A stretch of DNA of 64,000 nucleotides from positions 1 through 64,000 of the forward strand of contig CALVGZ010000008.1 of assembly GCA_944327225.1 (NCBI GenBank), written 5' to 3'. This DNA comes from Candidatus Gastranaerophilales bacterium (GTDB lineage Bacteria; Cyanobacteriota; Vampirovibrionia; Gastranaerophilales; Gastranaerophilaceae). The notes below the pieces were generated by a model. That model searched no databases and was not told the origin of the DNA. It worked only from the letters and a program-made list of their open reading frames with translations. The translations under genes were made by a program, and so were the position numbers. Below are positions 3,331 through 16,496 of the stretch, one piece after another (within the stretch, counting starts at the first letter, position 1; each line of letters starts with the position of its first letter).

Positions 3331-4989
3331 CTATTGCGCTATTGCACCTTCGTCTGCTTGAGATACGTTTCTTTGATATTTTGATAAATATCCTTTTAAA
3401 ACTTCATTTTGATATGGTTTAAAGTTTTGTTTTCTTTTATTTAATTCTTCTTCGGATATTAAAAGATTAATTGTTTTTTTATTTATATCAATTTGGATTT
3501 TATCACCGTTTTCAATCAATCCTATTGTACCGCCTATTGCAGCTTCAGGACATATATGTCCAATACATAGTCCTCTTGTCCCGCCGGAAAATCTTCCGTC
3601 TGTTATAAGAGCACATTTTTTCCCCAGACCTTTTCCAACTAAAAGTGAAGTTGGAGCAAGCATTTCTCGCATTCCTGGGCCGCCTTTCGGGCCTTCATAG
3701 CGTATTACAACTACGTCTCCTGCAACTACATCATCATTTTCAATTGCTTTCATTGCATCTTCTTCATGATTGTATACTTTAGCGGTTCCGGTAAATTCAA
3801 ATACATCGGGGTCAACTCCTGAAATTTTAACAACAGCACCTCGAGGAGCCAAATTTCCTGATAAAATTGCAAGACCGGGATTTGAAGTTATAGGATTGTC
3901 AAAAGGTTTTATTACGCTATTATCAGCCCAGGCATTTTCTGCAATTTCACTTACTGATATTCCCATAACATTTTTGGTATTTTTCATTTCAGGGGTCTTG
4001 CCATATATTGTTTTTATAACTCCCGGAATTCCACCTGCATTATCTAAATCAGTCATTGTAAGTGTGCTTGAAGGGTCAAGTTTGATTATTTGAGGAATTT
4101 TTTTGCTTAAATCTTCAAAATCATTTAAACTCAGAGGAATACCAGCACTTTGAGCTATTGCAAGAAGGTGAAGTATTGAATTGGTCGAACCTCCAAGTGC
4201 TAAATCTACTACAATGGCATTTTTAATTGAATCCAGTGTTACTATGTCTCTTGGTAGTACATTATTTTTAATTAAATCACAAATTGCAAATCCAGAATCA
4301 AATGCAATTCTACGCTTTTTAGAAGACACTGCCGCCGCTGTTGCACAACCTGTTAGGCTCATTCCCATTACTTCAGTAAGGCATGCCAGTGTATTTGCGG
4401 TATACATTCCTTGACATGAGCCTATTGTAGGGCATGCGTAATGTTCCATTTCACATAATTTTTCTTTTGATATTTGTCCGATTCTGTACCTTCCGACAGC
4501 TTCTGAGGAGCCTCTTATAAATGTTAAGGTTTCACCTTTGCAGTGTCCTTCAAGTGAGGGCCCTGCTGTTACTATAATTGAAGGAATATTTAATCTGAGT
4601 GCTGCAATCAGCATTCCGGGAGTTATTTTATCGCAGTTTGTTAACAGTACCAATCCGTCTAATTGATGAGCATTTGCAACTGTTTCAACGCAGTCTGCAA
4701 TTAAATCACGACTTGGGAGTGAATATCTCATACCGCAATGACCCATTGCTATGCCGTCGCATACGGCAGGAACTCCGAAAATAAATGCTTGCCCGCCATT
4801 TGAATGTATTCCTTTTTCAATTTGACGTTCTAAATCTCGCATTCCAGCATGTCCCGGCACTAAATCCGAAAATGAGCTTGCAATTCCTATAAACGGTTTT
4901 TTAATATTTTTATCCGACAGTCCCCCAGCGTATAATAATGCTCTATGCGGTGCGTGTTCAATTCCTTCTTTTAAAATATTACTTCTCAT
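3331..4989 (-). CDS. ilvD: Dihydroxy-acid dehydratase
   Basis: Dehydrates 2,3-dihydroxy-isovalerate and 2,3-dihydroxy-3-methylvalerate to the 2-keto acids in valine and isoleucine synthesis. It is a cytoplasmic Fe-S enzyme. At 552 residues it is full length. The cluster-binding signatures [12 protein letters not shown] and [15 protein letters not shown] are present, as are the family blocks [10 protein letters not shown] and GGPGMREML. An ATG with GGAGCGAG just upstream (reverse strand) supports the start. No other ilv gene lies in the window. It is the first gene of a probable operon with the MCE protein and perhaps the exonuclease. Confidence 0.97.
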
Positions 4990-5097
4990 ACTCGCTCCTT
5001 GTGGCTTAATCTAACTTAATTAAAACATTTTTTTAATTATTCATCAATAAGGTTTATAGAATATAATCATTTTATATGTAGAAATCAATTTTGATTT

Positions 5098-10675: not shown

Positions 10676-12052
10676 ATGTACAACGTTGCAATAATAGGTG
10701 GCGGACCTGCGGGAATTTTTACTGCTTTAGAAATTACAAAATTAAAACCTGATTGGAAAGTTCTTTTAATTGAAAAAGGCAGAAAAATTGAGAAAAGAAT
10801 TTGCCCGATTAGAGAGGGGCAAAAAAAGTGTTTGTCTTGTAAGACTTGTGGTCTTTTGTGCGGATGGGGCGGAGCCGGAGCTTTTTCAGACGGTAAATTA
10901 ACTTTGACACCCGAGGTAGGTGGGCATTTGGTTGATTATATGCCTTATGGTGAAGTAGAAGATTTAATCAAATATTGTGATAATATTTATCTTGATCATG
11001 GTGCAACTCAGACTGTGTTTGGAACAAATAAGGCTGATTTTGCGGATATTGAGCATGCAGCGACTTTAGCAGAATTAAAGCTTGTTCATTCTCCTGTTAG
11101 GCATTTGGGAACGGAAAAATCGCTTGCAGTATTAAAATCAATGCAGGATTATTTAGAATCTAGAATTGATATTATCAATAACGAACAAGTAGAAGAATTT
11201 ATTATAAAAGATGATGTAATCAAGGGTTTTACAACTCGTGAAGGAAAAGAATATTTAGCTGATTTTGTTGTGGTCGCCCCGGGCAGGGAAGGTGCGGATT
11301 GGTTATCTAAACAATTTATTAAACATAAAATTGAAATGGTAAATAACGCAGTTGATGTTGGTGTTCGTGTTGAATTACCCGCTGCTGTTATGGAGCCTAT
11401 AACATCAAGATTATATGAGTCGAAATTAATATATCACGCACCAACTTTTGGTGATGAAGTTAGAACTTTTTGTATGAATCCGAACGGTGAAGTTGTGAAT
11501 GAAAATTATAACGGTATTTCAACCGTAAATGGTCATTCGTATGCAGATAAAAAGACGCCTAATACAAATTTTGCACTTTTGGTTTCTAAAAAGTTTACTG
11601 AACCGTTCCATGAACCTATTAAATATGGTCAACATATAGCATCATTGGCAAATATGCTTTCAGGCGGAATTTTAGTTCAAAGGTTTGGCGATTTATTAGA
11701 CGGTCGTCGCTCTACCCCTCAAAGAATTAAAGAATCTATTATTAAACCAACTTTGGAATGTGCAACGCCCGGGGATTTGAGCCTTGTTTTGCCTTATCGT
11801 CAGCTCTTGAGCATCATTGAAATGCTTTATGCACTTGATAAAATTGCTCCCGGAGTTGCTTCAAGATATACGTTGTTGTATGGAATTGAAGTTAAATTTT
11901 ATTCTGCGAGAGTATTGGTTTCGAATGAACTTGAAACTTTTGGTGTTAAAAATCTCTTTGCAATAGGCGATGGGGCGGGTGTAACAAGAGGATTAATGCA
12001 GGCCAGTGCTTCGGGTGTGCATGTTGCAAGAGTTATTGCAAACAGAAAATAA
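10676..12052 (+). CDS. FAD-dependent dehydrogenase (COG2509-like)
   Basis: The Rossmann dinucleotide-binding motif GGGPAGIFTALE is at residues 8-19, and a second nucleotide-binding signature near the C terminus reads NLFAIGDGAGVTRG. A cysteine cluster, CLSCKTCGLLCG, at about 55-66 followed by GGAGAFSDGKL is typical of the uncharacterised FAD-dependent dehydrogenase family COG2509. The cysteines suggest a redox or metal role. The length of 458 fits. The start is supported by AAGAAGG upstream. The next gene begins 16 nt after its stop, then an HgdC-like activase follows, so the three may form an operon. Substrate unknown. Confidence 0.85.
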   Translation: MYNVAIIGGGPAGIFTALEITKLKPDWKVLLIEKGRKIEKRICPIREGQKKCLSCKTCGLLCGWGGAGAFSDGKLTLTPEVGGHLVDYMPYGEVEDLIKYCDNIYLDHGATQTVFGTNKADFADIEHAATLAELKLVHSPVRHLGTEKSLAVLKSMQDYLESRIDIINNEQVEEFIIKDDVIKGFTTREGKEYLADFVVVAPGREGADWLSKQFIKHKIEMVNNAVDVGVRVELPAAVMEPITSRLYESKLIYHAPTFGDEVRTFCMNPNGEVVNENYNGISTVNGHSYADKKTPNTNFALLVSKKFTEPFHEPIKYGQHIASLANMLSGGILVQRFGDLLDGRRSTPQRIKESIIKPTLECATPGDLSLVLPYRQLLSIIEMLYALDKIAPGVASRYTLLYGIEVKFYSARVLVSNELETFGVKNLFAIGDGAGVTRGLMQASASGVHVARVIANRK

Positions 12053-12068
12053 ATATAAAATCAGTACT

Positions 12069-12803
12069 ATGACAAAAGACATTATTGCTTTTTGGGGATA
12101 TCCCGAAAAAAGTTTAATTAAGAAAACAAAAAATGAATATCCGAATGCCAAGTGGGTGGATTTGGATATAGATATAAATGCTCCTGATTTAAAGTTATTA
12201 CCTGAAAATTATTGTGTGATAATTAAAAATATTTACAATAATGCTTTGTTTTTGAAAGATAAAATTATAAAAATTCTTGCTCCGATAGGAAAAGATAAAT
12301 GCGATAGTGCATATTTTGCTAGTGAAATTTTAAAAGAAGCAGGTTTTTGTGTTATACAAACTATTTTTGAGGATGTTTGTCCAGATTTGACAAAAATTAG
12401 TGTTCCTATTTCAAAAAGTTCTTTACCTCTTAAGGAAAAAATTGAGTTAATTACAAAAAATATTGTTGAACAAAAAGAGTATAATTATTTAAAGCAATCA
12501 AATCCAAGGTTTGGTTTTTGGGGTGTTCCGCCTAATGATCTTTCATTATTGGATTTGTTTCCTGATGGAACAGAGGTTTTTGGTTGGTGTAGAGCTGTTG
12601 AGGCTGGTTATCCGGGAGATTATAGGATTGAAACCTACGTTGATAAAAATATTCCTACTATATTTTTTACTCAGGCTTTTTGTTCCAAAACTCAACTTGC
12701 AAAGTATCTTGCAAATAAATATGAGGGACTTTTTATAGATGTTGATGTTAGTCCTAATGCCTCTATAAGAGCAAAAATAGAAGCATTTATAAAATTGAGG
12801 TAA
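12069..12803 (+). CDS. Unknown protein paired with an HgdC-like activase
   Basis: A 244-residue soluble protein that I do not recognise. I place the start at the ATG at 12069 (M-T-K-D-I-I-A-F-W-G), after the end of the FAD gene. An upstream in-frame ATG at 12006 would overlap that gene by 47 bases and add a tail that does not look native. No clear Shine-Dalgarno is seen for either. Two regions of similar flavour are visible (IAFWGYPEKSL near the start and FGFWGVPPNDL near residue 147), suggesting an internal duplication. Several cysteines occur. Its stop is two bases before the activase start, so coupling is likely. It could be a reduced partner of the 2-hydroxyacyl-CoA dehydratase type, but I cannot show this. 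Confidence 0.75.
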   Translation: MTKDIIAFWGYPEKSLIKKTKNEYPNAKWVDLDIDINAPDLKLLPENYCVIIKNIYNNALFLKDKIIKILAPIGKDKCDSAYFASEILKEAGFCVIQTIFEDVCPDLTKISVPISKSSLPLKEKIELITKNIVEQKEYNYLKQSNPRFGFWGVPPNDLSLLDLFPDGTEVFGWCRAVEAGYPGDYRIETYVDKNIPTIFFTQAFCSKTQLAKYLANKYEGLFIDVDVSPNASIRAKIEAFIKLR

Positions 12804-12805
12804 TA

Positions 12806-13462
12806 ATGGAAATATATGTTGACGCCGGTACAACTTGGACTAAAATTTTAAAAGTTAGTGAAAATGAAAAAAAATATGAAGTTATACCAACAAGAGACTT
12901 GAAAAAACTTGATTTAAATCCTAAAAAGGCTACAGGACATAGTATTATACAAGCTCAAAATTATGAGAATGAAGTTGTGGCTTTAGCAAACGGTGCTAAA
13001 AAATACTTGGAAGATGATTTTATTGCACTTGATTTGGGGTCAAGGGATATAAAATGGGTTAAGTATAAAAATAAAAAATTTCAAGATATGGATTGGAATT
13101 CTTCTTGTGCAAGTGCAACAGGGGCAACTGTTGAGATGCTTTTAAAATTCTATAATGTAAGTGTGTCTGATTTAATTTATACAAAGGAAAAATATTCAAT
13201 TACATGCGGTATTTTTGGTTTGGAAAAGATTATGGATGATGTTTCAAAAGGTTTGGAGCCTGAAATTGCAATATCAAAATTTGTACACGGAATTGCTTAC
13301 AATGCTTATATTTTTACTAAAAGTCCGGAAAAGATTTGTATTTCAGGTGGGTTTTGTGAAAATAAATGTTTTATAAAATGCCTGGAACAATATTGTAAGG
13401 TTGTTCCTTTGGGAAGGTTTGTTCTTGTTGATGGTTTGGAAATGTTGATTAATCAGGATTAA
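12806..13462 (+). CDS. BadF/HgdC-family ATPase, [4Fe-4S] activase-like
   Basis: ASKHA-fold ATPase related to the activators of 2-hydroxyacyl-CoA dehydratases and benzoyl-CoA reductases, which use ATP to push a low-potential electron into a partner enzyme. The phosphate-1 motif is DAGTTWTK (residues 6-13) and the second is LDLGSRDIK (75-83). The two cysteines that hold the dimer-bridging cluster are present as C101 (SSCASATGA) and C134 (SITCGIFG), and the adenosine motif SGGFCENK follows at 180-187. At 218 residues it is somewhat shorter than HgdC. No recognisable full-size dehydratase subunit is adjacent. It ends convergent with, and overlapping, the cheA gene. Confidence 0.8.
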   Translation: MEIYVDAGTTWTKILKVSENEKKYEVIPTRDLKKLDLNPKKATGHSIIQAQNYENEVVALANGAKKYLEDDFIALDLGSRDIKWVKYKNKKFQDMDWNSSCASATGATVEMLLKFYNVSVSDLIYTKEKYSITCGIFGLEKIMDDVSKGLEPEIAISKFVHGIAYNAYIFTKSPEKICISGGFCENKCFIKCLEQYCKVVPLGRFVLVDGLEMLINQD

Positions 13463-16400
13463 ATATTTTTTCAATTTCTGCAATTAATTCTTCTTGTTTG
13501 AATAAATTCTTTTCTATATATGTTTTAATTTTGGTTTCTTTTGCTTCATTAATATATTTTTCTTTTGGTTCTGAACTTACTACTATAACTGGAGTATTTT
13601 CATATTCAGGGTTTTTTCTTAATTCTTTTATAAATTCAAAACCGTTCATTTCCGGCATTTGGATATCTGAAATTATTAAATCATATTTATTTTGATGTGT
13701 TTTTTCAAGTGCTTTAATAGGATTGGTTGCAGTTGAAATATTATATCCGTAGTTTGATAGAATATTTTTTTGTAAAATTCTTGTTGTATGAGAGTCATCA
13801 ACTATTAAAATTTTATATTTAAAATTGTCTTGAGTTTTGATAATACCATTTTTGGTTATTATTTTACTCTTTATTTTTTTAGAATTTATTGTATTTATTA
13901 TATCGGAAGTGTTTAATATTAGGCAGGCTTCACCGTTTGCAAGTGTTGTTATGCCTGAAATGTTTTTGATTTTATATAATGGCGGAGCAAGTTTTTTGTG
14001 GACAATTTCTTGGTCAGAAATTAGTTTTTCAACGATAATACCAAAAGTATTGTTATCTGTTTTTATAATTAAAAGGGTATATTTATTTGTTTCTCTTGCC
14101 ACATTATCAAAATTTAAGATTTGAGACAATGTATAGATTGCAATTGCTGAATTATTATATATGTAATAGTTTCTGTTATCTTTTTCAAAAATTTCGTCAG
14201 AGTTGATTCTGATTATTGTTTTAATAACCGAAGTTTCGATTGCATAAAGTTGTGCTTGTTCTTCAATTATGAATACTTTTTTGGTTGCAACTGTTGCAGG
14301 TAAAACTATTCTTACGACTGTACCTTTGTTTAATTCGGAGAATATATCTACTCTGCCATTCATTTGGTTAATTTTAGTATTTACTATATCAAGTCCTAAT
14401 CCTCTGCCCGAAAGTTCAGTTACAAAGTCTTCAGTTGAAAAGCCGGGATAAAATATTAAATTTGTAAGTTCTTCGTCGCTTATTGCGTTAAGTTCATCTT
14501 GTGTTAAAAGTTTTTTTTCAAGTGCTTTGGTTTTGATTTTTTCAATATCAAGACCTCTGCCGTCATCTTTTACGTCAATTATAATTTTATTATCTTTGTA
14601 TGTTGCATTAATTTCAATTTTTCCTATTGGATTTTTCTTTAATGATTTTCTTGTTTCAACATCTTCAATTCCATGGTCTATAGAATTTCTTATTATGTGA
14701 ATAAGCGGTATTTTTATTTCTTCAATAATGGTTTTATCTGCTGTTATATCAGAACCTTCAATTATTAAATCAATTTTTTTATTTTTGTCACGTGCAATGT
14801 TGTGTACCATTCTTGGGAATAATTGAAAAATGGTAGAAAGAGGTAAAATTCTCATATTTTTAACCATTGTTTCAATTTCCGTTGTTGTTGAGTTAAGTTT
14901 TGTTTCGCTTTCTTGTAGTTGTTTAAATAAAACAGACATTTCTTTTATAAGATTAGATATTTTTTCCTGATGCTGTTCTGCAAGTGTGCAGAGTTGTTTG
15001 TTATAGGCAATTATTTTTCTGTAGTCTTGCATTTCATCATTGATTGGGTTAGATAAATATTTTTTATCAAAATATTTTATGTAATATCCCATTTTAACGA
15101 AGTTTTTTTGCCAATCTGACAGGTCATTGCTTATTTTTTTGGCAAGAGAGAGTTGTTCATTAGTTTTGATTTTTGACACAATTAACTCTCCTATTTGACC
15201 AACTAAATTGTCCAGTTTTGTTGAATCAACTCTTAGGGTTTTAATTTCTGTGTTTGTTATTGTATTTAGAATTTCCTTTTGAGTCAGTTCTCCTGAAGTA
15301 TGTATTTTTTCGTGTTTTTCATTTTGCTCTTTATATTGAAATTTTGTCATTTTTTTAATGACATCGGCTTTAATTATAGCTTCTTTTATTTGGTCTTCAT
15401 TGTTCGATTTTATTGAACTTAGAATTTCTTTTAAACCCAAAATAATGTCGTTAGCTATTGTTAAATTTTTGTTTTTGAATACTTCAAGGATTTCTTTTAC
15501 GTTTAGATAAATATTTTTTATTTGTGCTTCATTTTCTTTAAAAATGAGATCATTTATAATATCAATTACTTCTTTTATAAAGTCGTTGTTTAATTCAAGC
15601 AAGGGGATTTTTTCTATTATTTCATCGATTTTTTCATTTTTTGGTAAATTTATTTTATTAATTTGTGGTGTTTTTGGTGCTTCGTTTTCTTTTAATTTTT
15701 CTTCTACAATTTCAAAATATTCTTTTCTTTGAATATGCTCTTTGTCTGCATATTGCGTTATGGCTTCAATTAAGGCCATGACACAATTATTCACTTCCAG
15801 AAAAGAAAACTCCTTATTATCCGAGTTTCTGAATTTATCAAGAGAATTTAAAATATTTTGTGCGAAATTTTCTAAAGAACCGGCAATATTTGAATCTATT
15901 GTTTTAATTATGCTTTCAAAGGTTCTTATGTTACCTTCTATATCAAAAATTTTTTCAAATTTTTTAGATATTCTGACGTATGAAATTGTGTATAATATTT
16001 CAATTAATATATTTTCAATTTTTTCAAATTTTTCAAGAAATTCTTTTTTTGTCGGATTATTTTCAAATTCGTCATTGGATGTGTTAATTTCTTGTTTATA
16101 ATTTATAATATTTTCAAGTTTTTGAATGTAGTTTTGAGTTTCGGGTGATTTATATTCTTCTTTTTGGTTCACTGTTTTGTTAATTAATGATGAAATAAAT
16201 TCCAAGCATTCCGAAATCGTGTCTGTTATGTTAGATGTTATAATAAGTTTATTTTCTTTAATAAGGCTTATAATATCTTCTATTTTATGAGCAATATTTT
16301 GGATATCTTCAAAGCCAAGCATTCTTGCCGAACCCTTTAGGGAATGAGCATCTCTAAAAAGTTGCATGGCAATTTCGGTATTTGAGTTATCTTTTTCAAG

Positions 16401-16496
16401 CATTAGAAGTTTTCCATCCATTGATGAAATTATTTCCATACTTTCTTGCTGAAAAATATTTAATATTTCATTTAATTCTTCTTTTTGAAATTCCAT
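13449..16496 (-). CDS. cheA: Hybrid chemotaxis histidine kinase with C-terminal receiver
   Basis: CheA-type kinase of 1015 residues. An N-terminal HPt domain has phospho-accepting H51 (AHSLKGSARMLGF). A long helical linker (about 120-400) without an obvious P2 domain follows, then a P3 dimerisation region (about 420-560). The HATPase has an N-box IIRNSIDHGIED and G-boxes DDGRGLD and GRGLGLDIV (about 560-740). A CheW-like P5 domain (about 745-875) and a receiver domain (about 893-1015) close the protein, the latter with IVDDSHTTR and LIISDIQMPEMNG. The CheA-receiver fusion resembles cyanobacterial phototaxis/pilus kinases and Pil-Chp ChpA. It lies 15 bases downstream of the MCP gene on the same strand. 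Confidence 0.95.
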   Translation of the reverse strand: MEFQKEELNEILNIFQQESMEIISSMDGKLLMLEKDNSNTEIAMQLFRDAHSLKGSARMLGFEDIQNIAHKIEDIISLIKENKLIITSNITDTISECLEFISSLINKTVNQKEEYKSPETQNYIQKLENIINYKQEINTSNDEFENNPTKKEFLEKFEKIENILIEILYTISYVRISKKFEKIFDIEGNIRTFESIIKTIDSNIAGSLENFAQNILNSLDKFRNSDNKEFSFLEVNNCVMALIEAITQYADKEHIQRKEYFEIVEEKLKENEAPKTPQINKINLPKNEKIDEIIEKIPLLELNNDFIKEVIDIINDLIFKENEAQIKNIYLNVKEILEVFKNKNLTIANDIILGLKEILSSIKSNNEDQIKEAIIKADVIKKMTKFQYKEQNEKHEKIHTSGELTQKEILNTITNTEIKTLRVDSTKLDNLVGQIGELIVSKIKTNEQLSLAKKISNDLSDWQKNFVKMGYYIKYFDKKYLSNPINDEMQDYRKIIAYNKQLCTLAEQHQEKISNLIKEMSVLFKQLQESETKLNSTTTEIETMVKNMRILPLSTIFQLFPRMVHNIARDKNKKIDLIIEGSDITADKTIIEEIKIPLIHIIRNSIDHGIEDVETRKSLKKNPIGKIEINATYKDNKIIIDVKDDGRGLDIEKIKTKALEKKLLTQDELNAISDEELTNLIFYPGFSTEDFVTELSGRGLGLDIVNTKINQMNGRVDIFSELNKGTVVRIVLPATVATKKVFIIEEQAQLYAIETSVIKTIIRINSDEIFEKDNRNYYIYNNSAIAIYTLSQILNFDNVARETNKYTLLIIKTDNNTFGIIVEKLISDQEIVHKKLAPPLYKIKNISGITTLANGEACLILNTSDIINTINSKKIKSKIITKNGIIKTQDNFKYKILIVDDSHTTRILQKNILSNYGYNISTATNPIKALEKTHQNKYDLIISDIQMPEMNGFEFIKELRKNPEYENTPVIVVSSEPKEKYINEAKETKIKTYIEKNLFKQEELIAEIEKIFNPD

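Follow-up and report, generated by a model that had tools for sequence, protein, structure and literature searches.

The locus described here raises the question of what an HgdC-like activase serves when the gene beside it encodes a protein of no recognized family. The window (the whole stretch of DNA that was analysed, 64,000 nucleotides) belongs to a Gastranaerophilales genome of 1.73 Mb whose nearest named relatives are Candidatus Gastranaerophilales. As shown in Table 1, its plus strand carries, in this order, genes for an FAD protein, a 244-residue protein that we call the partner, and a 218-residue activase. An earlier note on this DNA had placed the activase two bases past the end of the partner, which is where we find it and at the same coordinates, and it had read the genes as a small reductase module powered by the activase, with the FAD enzyme perhaps as the electron source. 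We conclude that the partner and the activase are a real two-gene unit. In our judgment, this unit is probably a self-contained module in which the activase would fire single electrons into the one [4Fe-4S] cluster of the partner, held by three cysteines, so that the partner would act as a small reductase.

Table 1. Features of the pair and related genes of the host; positions are those of the window unless a contig is named.
Feature	Position	Strand	Basis or observation
FAD protein, 458 residues	10676-12052	+	Open reading frame
Partner, 244 residues, alpha/beta domains at about 1-102 and 146-244; putative one-cluster relative of BCR/HAD catalytic subunits	12069-12803	+	
Codon of partner C49	12213-12215	+	Invariant in 56/56 rows; turn after strand 28-31, start of helix 48-61
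Codon of partner C78, in GKDKCDS	12300-12302	+	Invariant in 56/56 rows; turn after strand 66-73, start of helix 78-90
Codon of partner C205	12681-12683	+	Invariant in 56/56 rows; turn between strand 197-201 and helix 207-217
Dedicated activase, 218 residues; putative compact HgdC-like ATPase	12806-13462	+	Homology
Codon of activase C101	13106-13108	+	53/53 rows; canonical cluster cysteine
Codon of activase C134	13205-13207	+	53/53 rows; canonical cluster cysteine
Activase C184-x3-C188	13355-13369	+	53/53 and 52/53 rows; just after the SGG nucleotide motif
Second activase and two HGD-D-like proteins of the host	C26:17433-18191 (L001), C1:14249-14434 (L084), C7:4400-4582		Separate contigs

A convergent 1015-residue gene on the minus strand (13449-16496), which we call CheA-like from a reading of its sequence, runs over the last 14 bases of the activase gene. 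A promoter scan did no better than shuffles, and the terminator-like sites, six against 1.4 in shuffles, are all weak or lie inside genes.

The activase has each of the features that had been ascribed to it, namely the DxGTT motif (as DAGTT), C101, C134 and the GG motif (as SGG). C101 and C134 are invariant in the family alignment, and in a family-profile match to HgdC (PDB 1hux, E 8.4e-16) they align with the corresponding HgdC cysteines, which we take to be the [4Fe-4S] ligands across the dimer; both cysteines of the HgdC-like superfamily (BcrAD_BadFG / CoA_E_activ) are therefore in place. The ASKHA phosphate motifs DxG(S/T)T..K, DxGxxDxK and GG are present as DAGTT..K, DLGSRDIK (with GS-R replacing GG-Q) and SGG. 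The family profile also matches E. coli YjiL (E 2.7e-8), and all 38 members of the activase family match TIGR00241 at E 0.001 or better. Because the window protein scores 53.4 bits against TIGR00241 (curated cut-off 125.4) and 22.8 bits against PF01869 (curated cut-off 31.5), we treat it as a divergent relative rather than as a member of either curated family. It shares the cluster cysteines with HgdC-type activases but differs from them in length (218 residues versus 270-276 in solved chains), in having GSRD for GGQD, and in an extra CxxxC. By analogy with these families, an activase dimer would hold a [4Fe-4S] cluster between its subunits through C101 and C134 of each and would couple the hydrolysis of ATP to the transfer of electrons (PMC11971306). 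The extra pair, C184-x3-C188, aligns with no cysteine of HgdC or YjiL; from its position beside the SGG motif it could be a second metal site or a redox switch.

To follow the inheritance of the two genes, we used 58 genomes of relatives and 240 genomes of the class, two sets that overlap. In the 58-genome set the partner gave 46 matches, of which G028 was removed because its matching protein is a histidine kinase by sequence, leaving 45 (a second row of G009 was also dropped). The dedicated activase, counted at E below 1e-20 so that the weak match of G048 does not enter, is likewise present in 45. Both genes occur in 44 of these genomes, the partner alone in one (G053), the activase alone in one (G038) and neither in 12. 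In the class-wide set, where one weak partner row (G062, E 4e-4) was dropped before counting, 54 genomes have both genes, one has only the activase, none has only the partner and 185 have neither. Co-occurrence thus gives Fisher p values of 2e-10 and 2e-53, respectively, for two overlapping sets and with kinship among genomes ignored. The two exceptions of the smaller set lie close to contig ends: in G053 (88% complete) the contig stops 284 bases past the partner, with no activase in that tail, and in G038 it stops 7 bases past the frame of the activase.

The pairing is far beyond chance: in the smaller set, 42 of the 45 partner-bearing genomes have the activase as the very next gene after the partner, and G006 and G049 have the two genes on separate contigs; in the larger set, 39 of the 54 genomes with both have them adjacent and 15 on separate contigs. 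Within the window's own genus, G002, G008, G011, G015 and G017 are devoid of both. This joint absence, together with joint presence where the genes are unlinked, points to a function in common, over and above mere linkage. The pair is also found in the same order, at 40% identity, in a genome from another class of the phylum (G291), the sole pair-bearing genome of the 18 searched in that class. Beyond Cyanobacteriota the coverage was one scan of genome contigs with the window partner's own peptide patterns, which returned 11 loci; those named by lineage are Gastranaerophilales. Searches for the partner gave no match in plasmids, none in six records of which most carry classical HGD-D genes, and nothing in a defence library or PHROGs. 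The earlier note had allowed that the partner might turn out to be unrelated and not conserved beside the activase in relatives; we find instead that the gene pair is conserved, and this check leaves the note's reading unrefuted.

From locus to locus, the partner and the activase are the only genes that recur, and thus the unit has two genes: among 27 loci examined, the partner is present at 27 and the activase at 26, the next gene clusters in at most eight, and the upstream neighbours of the pair at other loci are unrelated genes. The FAD gene (P0003-like) has a counterpart, at E 1e-50, in 54 of the 58 relatives, among them the 12 without either gene of the pair, is missing from four partner-bearing genomes (G030, G035, G037 and G043), and falls inside the examined stretch at seven of the 27 loci, all from one genus. 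Because it is widespread and present in every genome without the pair, we do not regard it as part of the unit, and the proposal that it supplies the electrons is not borne out, whereas the rest of that reading, that is, a conserved pair, kinship of the partner to HgdB or double-cubane proteins and a small activase-driven module, has held up. The FAD protein itself has a PF21688 domain at its C terminus and a stretch rich in cysteine, CLSCKTCGLLCGWGG. Gene context was also considered as a guide to the substrate and set aside, since no neighbour recurs broadly over the 27 loci, and the surroundings of the unlinked partner and activase genes of seven genomes hold nothing telling of a substrate.

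What, then, is the partner? In agreement with the earlier note, no family scores above its cut-off. The sole match in the family search is HGD-D (PF06050) over residues 44-92, at E 0.065 and 13.2 bits against a cut-off of 28.4. When 43 single members of the partner family were run against Pfam with E up to 1, HGD-D appeared in three (best E 0.026) and was outnumbered by both SKI, in 12, and PUB, in seven (best E 0.00037). A sequence search of the PDB gave nothing credible (thioredoxin at E 0.086), and hhalign found no match to YjiM alone or directly to the DUF2229 family. The HGD-D and DUF2229 proteins of the same genome were considered as the partner's closest sequence relatives and rejected, at hhalign E of 0.086 and 0.32.

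The partner's three cysteines, C49, C78 and C205, are invariant, alongside many invariant charged residues; a fourth cysteine column is filled in 36 of the 56 rows, and the window protein is without that cysteine. A double cubane ([8Fe-9S], six cysteines) is ruled out by there being three invariant cysteines in the 56 rows. We compared partner profiles with 34 HGD-D-type proteins, using as controls 300 shuffles and 29 unrelated real families, from which the partner's own cluster was excluded. The N-domain profile scores 32.8 against HGD-D, while the best of the 300 shuffles reaches 20.1 and the best of the 29 families 20.7, and the match puts C49 and C78 on the first and second HGD-D cysteines. 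The C-domain scores 17.3, below the best of 300 shuffles (22.1), and its relationship to HGD-D, taken alone, is not significant; C205 falls on the third HGD-D cysteine. An internal duplication had also been suggested for the partner. The repeated motifs behind it, FWGYP at residues 8-12 and FWGVP at 150-154, are real, but the half-to-half match is weak (29.8 over 26 columns in a profile comparison, versus 26.7 for the best of 200 column shuffles), and the apparent duplication is in keeping with the BCR/HAD family, whose two domains resemble each other in topology.

An AlphaFold2 model of the partner (12 sequences, pLDDT 76.9, pTM 0.59) has four strands in each half and is of moderate confidence, with the orientation of the halves unsure. 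In this model the cysteines sit in strand-helix turns, two in the first half and one in the second, and the stretch of ~45 residues between the domains holds one long helix (121-134) in place of the three-helix domain of BCR/HAD subunits. Foldseek against the PDB ranks (R)-2-hydroxyisocaproyl-CoA dehydratase first to third, DCCP fourth and BzdNO sixth, with glyoxylate/hydroxypyruvate reductase at rank 5; the E-values of the dehydratase, DCCP and BzdNO matches run from 4.8e-5 to 2.1e-3, and the same model gives E-values near 1e-4 against an unrelated viral ORFan too. Comparison with viral structures gave no meaningful match. VIA-align puts DCCP first (Z 8.2, rmsd 11.5 over 212 residues), with the dehydratase at Z 7.2 (rmsd 11.6, 211 residues) and LpxB at Z 7.1 over only 90 residues. 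Because the rmsd to the family structures is large (11-15), we take the domain orientation of the model to be off. The fold ranking and the N-domain profile support the kinship to the HgdB/double-cubane fold that the structure comparison was meant to probe. From its cysteines, its profile and the fold search, we consider it most likely that the partner is related, in minimal form, to the catalytic subunits found in 2-hydroxyacyl-CoA dehydratases, class I benzoyl-CoA reductases and double-cubane proteins. We do not file it as HGD-D, DCCP or TudS because it stays under the cut-offs and has neither the helical domain, nor six cysteines, nor a DUF523 match.

The catalytic subunits of class I benzoyl-CoA reductase offer a view of how such a cluster might be held. 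According to PMC11971306, BzdO binds its [4Fe-4S] cluster through Cys95, Cys128 and Cys380, a water molecule occupying the fourth iron, at strand-helix linkers of two four-stranded domains; the double cubane of BzdN is ligated by six cysteines; and the intermediate domain of BzdN and BzdO consists of three helices in 72-78 residues and helps to form the CoA channel. As modelled, the partner would be like BzdNO/PQ in its four-stranded N and C domains and in the placing of the site on strand-helix linkers, and the pair is unlike BzdNO/PQ in that the latter has two catalytic and two activase subunits and a CoA substrate. In the mechanism that we propose, ATP hydrolysis by the activase would push single low-potential electrons into the partner, which would bind one [4Fe-4S] cluster through C49 and C78 of domain 1 and C205 of domain 2, so that the fourth iron would be free to take up a substrate. 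The partner would then reduce a small and probably non-CoA molecule, since the CoA-binding helical domain is missing.

Other known systems resemble the pair in different respects. DCCP/DCCP-R (PDB 7yyl, 7yzm and 6eno) and E. coli YjiM/YjiL likewise pair a stand-alone catalytic protein with an activase, yjiM and yjiL are adjacent as the partner and activase genes are, and DCCP is the top VIA fold match of the partner. However, DCCP and YjiM have 383-422 residues versus 244 in the partner, which differs from DCCP in its three invariant cysteines, not six, and in having no helical intermediate domain. The 2-hydroxyacyl-CoA dehydratases (HadBC, PDB 3o3m/3o3n) are the top Foldseek match, but the partner is a single small subunit without the CoA channel bundle. 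We know of no activase-driven system of the BCR/HAD type that is smaller than this one would be, with a single-cluster partner of 244 residues and an activase of 218. According to the excerpts of PMC11971306, HadB and BzdO carry a [4Fe-4S] cluster on three cysteines, as we propose for the partner.

It is unlikely that the partner is no catalyst at all and that the unit is an enzyme-activation or electron-relay module, in which the partner would pass the activase's electrons to another protein, such as the separate DUF2229 and HGD-D-like proteins, or re-reduce an inactivated metalloenzyme. Such a role would suit a host genome that also encodes two longer HGD-D-like proteins, one of which contains DUF2229, and a second activase of the standard kind (PF01869, E 5e-51); it would also suit the weak match of eight of the 38 activase members to methanogenesis marker 15 and the lack of substrate genes near the pair. 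However, HGD-D-like proteins are found in 57 of the 58 relatives, and hence in 11 of the 12 genomes with neither pair gene, so their presence is independent of the pair. The many invariant charged residues of the partner, beyond its cysteines, also speak against a mere relay.

Less likely again is a non-redox chemistry like that of TudS, where a [4Fe-4S] cluster on three cysteines would remove sulfur or water by means of its open iron and the activase would only prime the cluster once. The excerpts of PMC10611767 and PMC11971306 describe the TudS (DUF523) desulfidase as a monomer of reduced BCR/HAD-type architecture, equal to one domain of a BCR/HAD subunit, with [4Fe-4S] on three cysteines, and according to the excerpts of PMC11971306 HADs reuse a single electron over many turnovers, which would fit a single priming event. 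TudS has one domain, whereas the partner has two, no activase is mentioned for TudS in those excerpts of the two papers, and DUF523 is absent from the families found for the 43 partner members at E 1. Finally, that the partner is an unrelated Rossmann-type protein merely accompanying an ASKHA-fold kinase that resembles an activase is very improbable: the C-domain modelled alone does give generic Rossmann matches at the top, and DCCP comes no higher than rank 23 (Z 5.2, level with unrelated chains), and the activase does stay under both curated cut-offs, but the three invariant partner cysteines with both activase cluster cysteines, the N-domain profile match to HGD-D and the fold-search ranking all tell against it.

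If the pair is the activase-driven reductase that we favour, the electron-firing core would stand apart from CoA chemistry, and an uncultured gut and environmental lineage would have a redox enzyme that had so far gone unnoticed. Only a few known architectures use ATP to bring electrons to very low potential (HADs, class I benzoyl-CoA reductases and double-cubane proteins), and nitrogenase and its kin form a separate ATP-driven low-potential electron system. We suggest tentatively, and with slightly less than even confidence, that the pair represents a further BCR/HAD radical-enzyme architecture, in which a core of two domains and one cluster, lacking the CoA-binding bundle, is driven by a compact activase of its own that has a second invariant cysteine pair (CxxxC) next to the nucleotide site. 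Such a system would be a minimal reductase of a non-CoA substrate, powered by ATP and working at low potential, and so far seen only in non-photosynthetic cyanobacterial relatives. Among the entries seen in our literature searches, none describes a pair of this partner and activase. Both proteins are small enough for direct expression and testing. In genus g34, where the pair is unlinked (L113, L119 and L121, near 4541-5046), the partner gene lies in several genomes between a pyrG-like gene and a small TSCPD-like gene, as we named them on reading their sequences.
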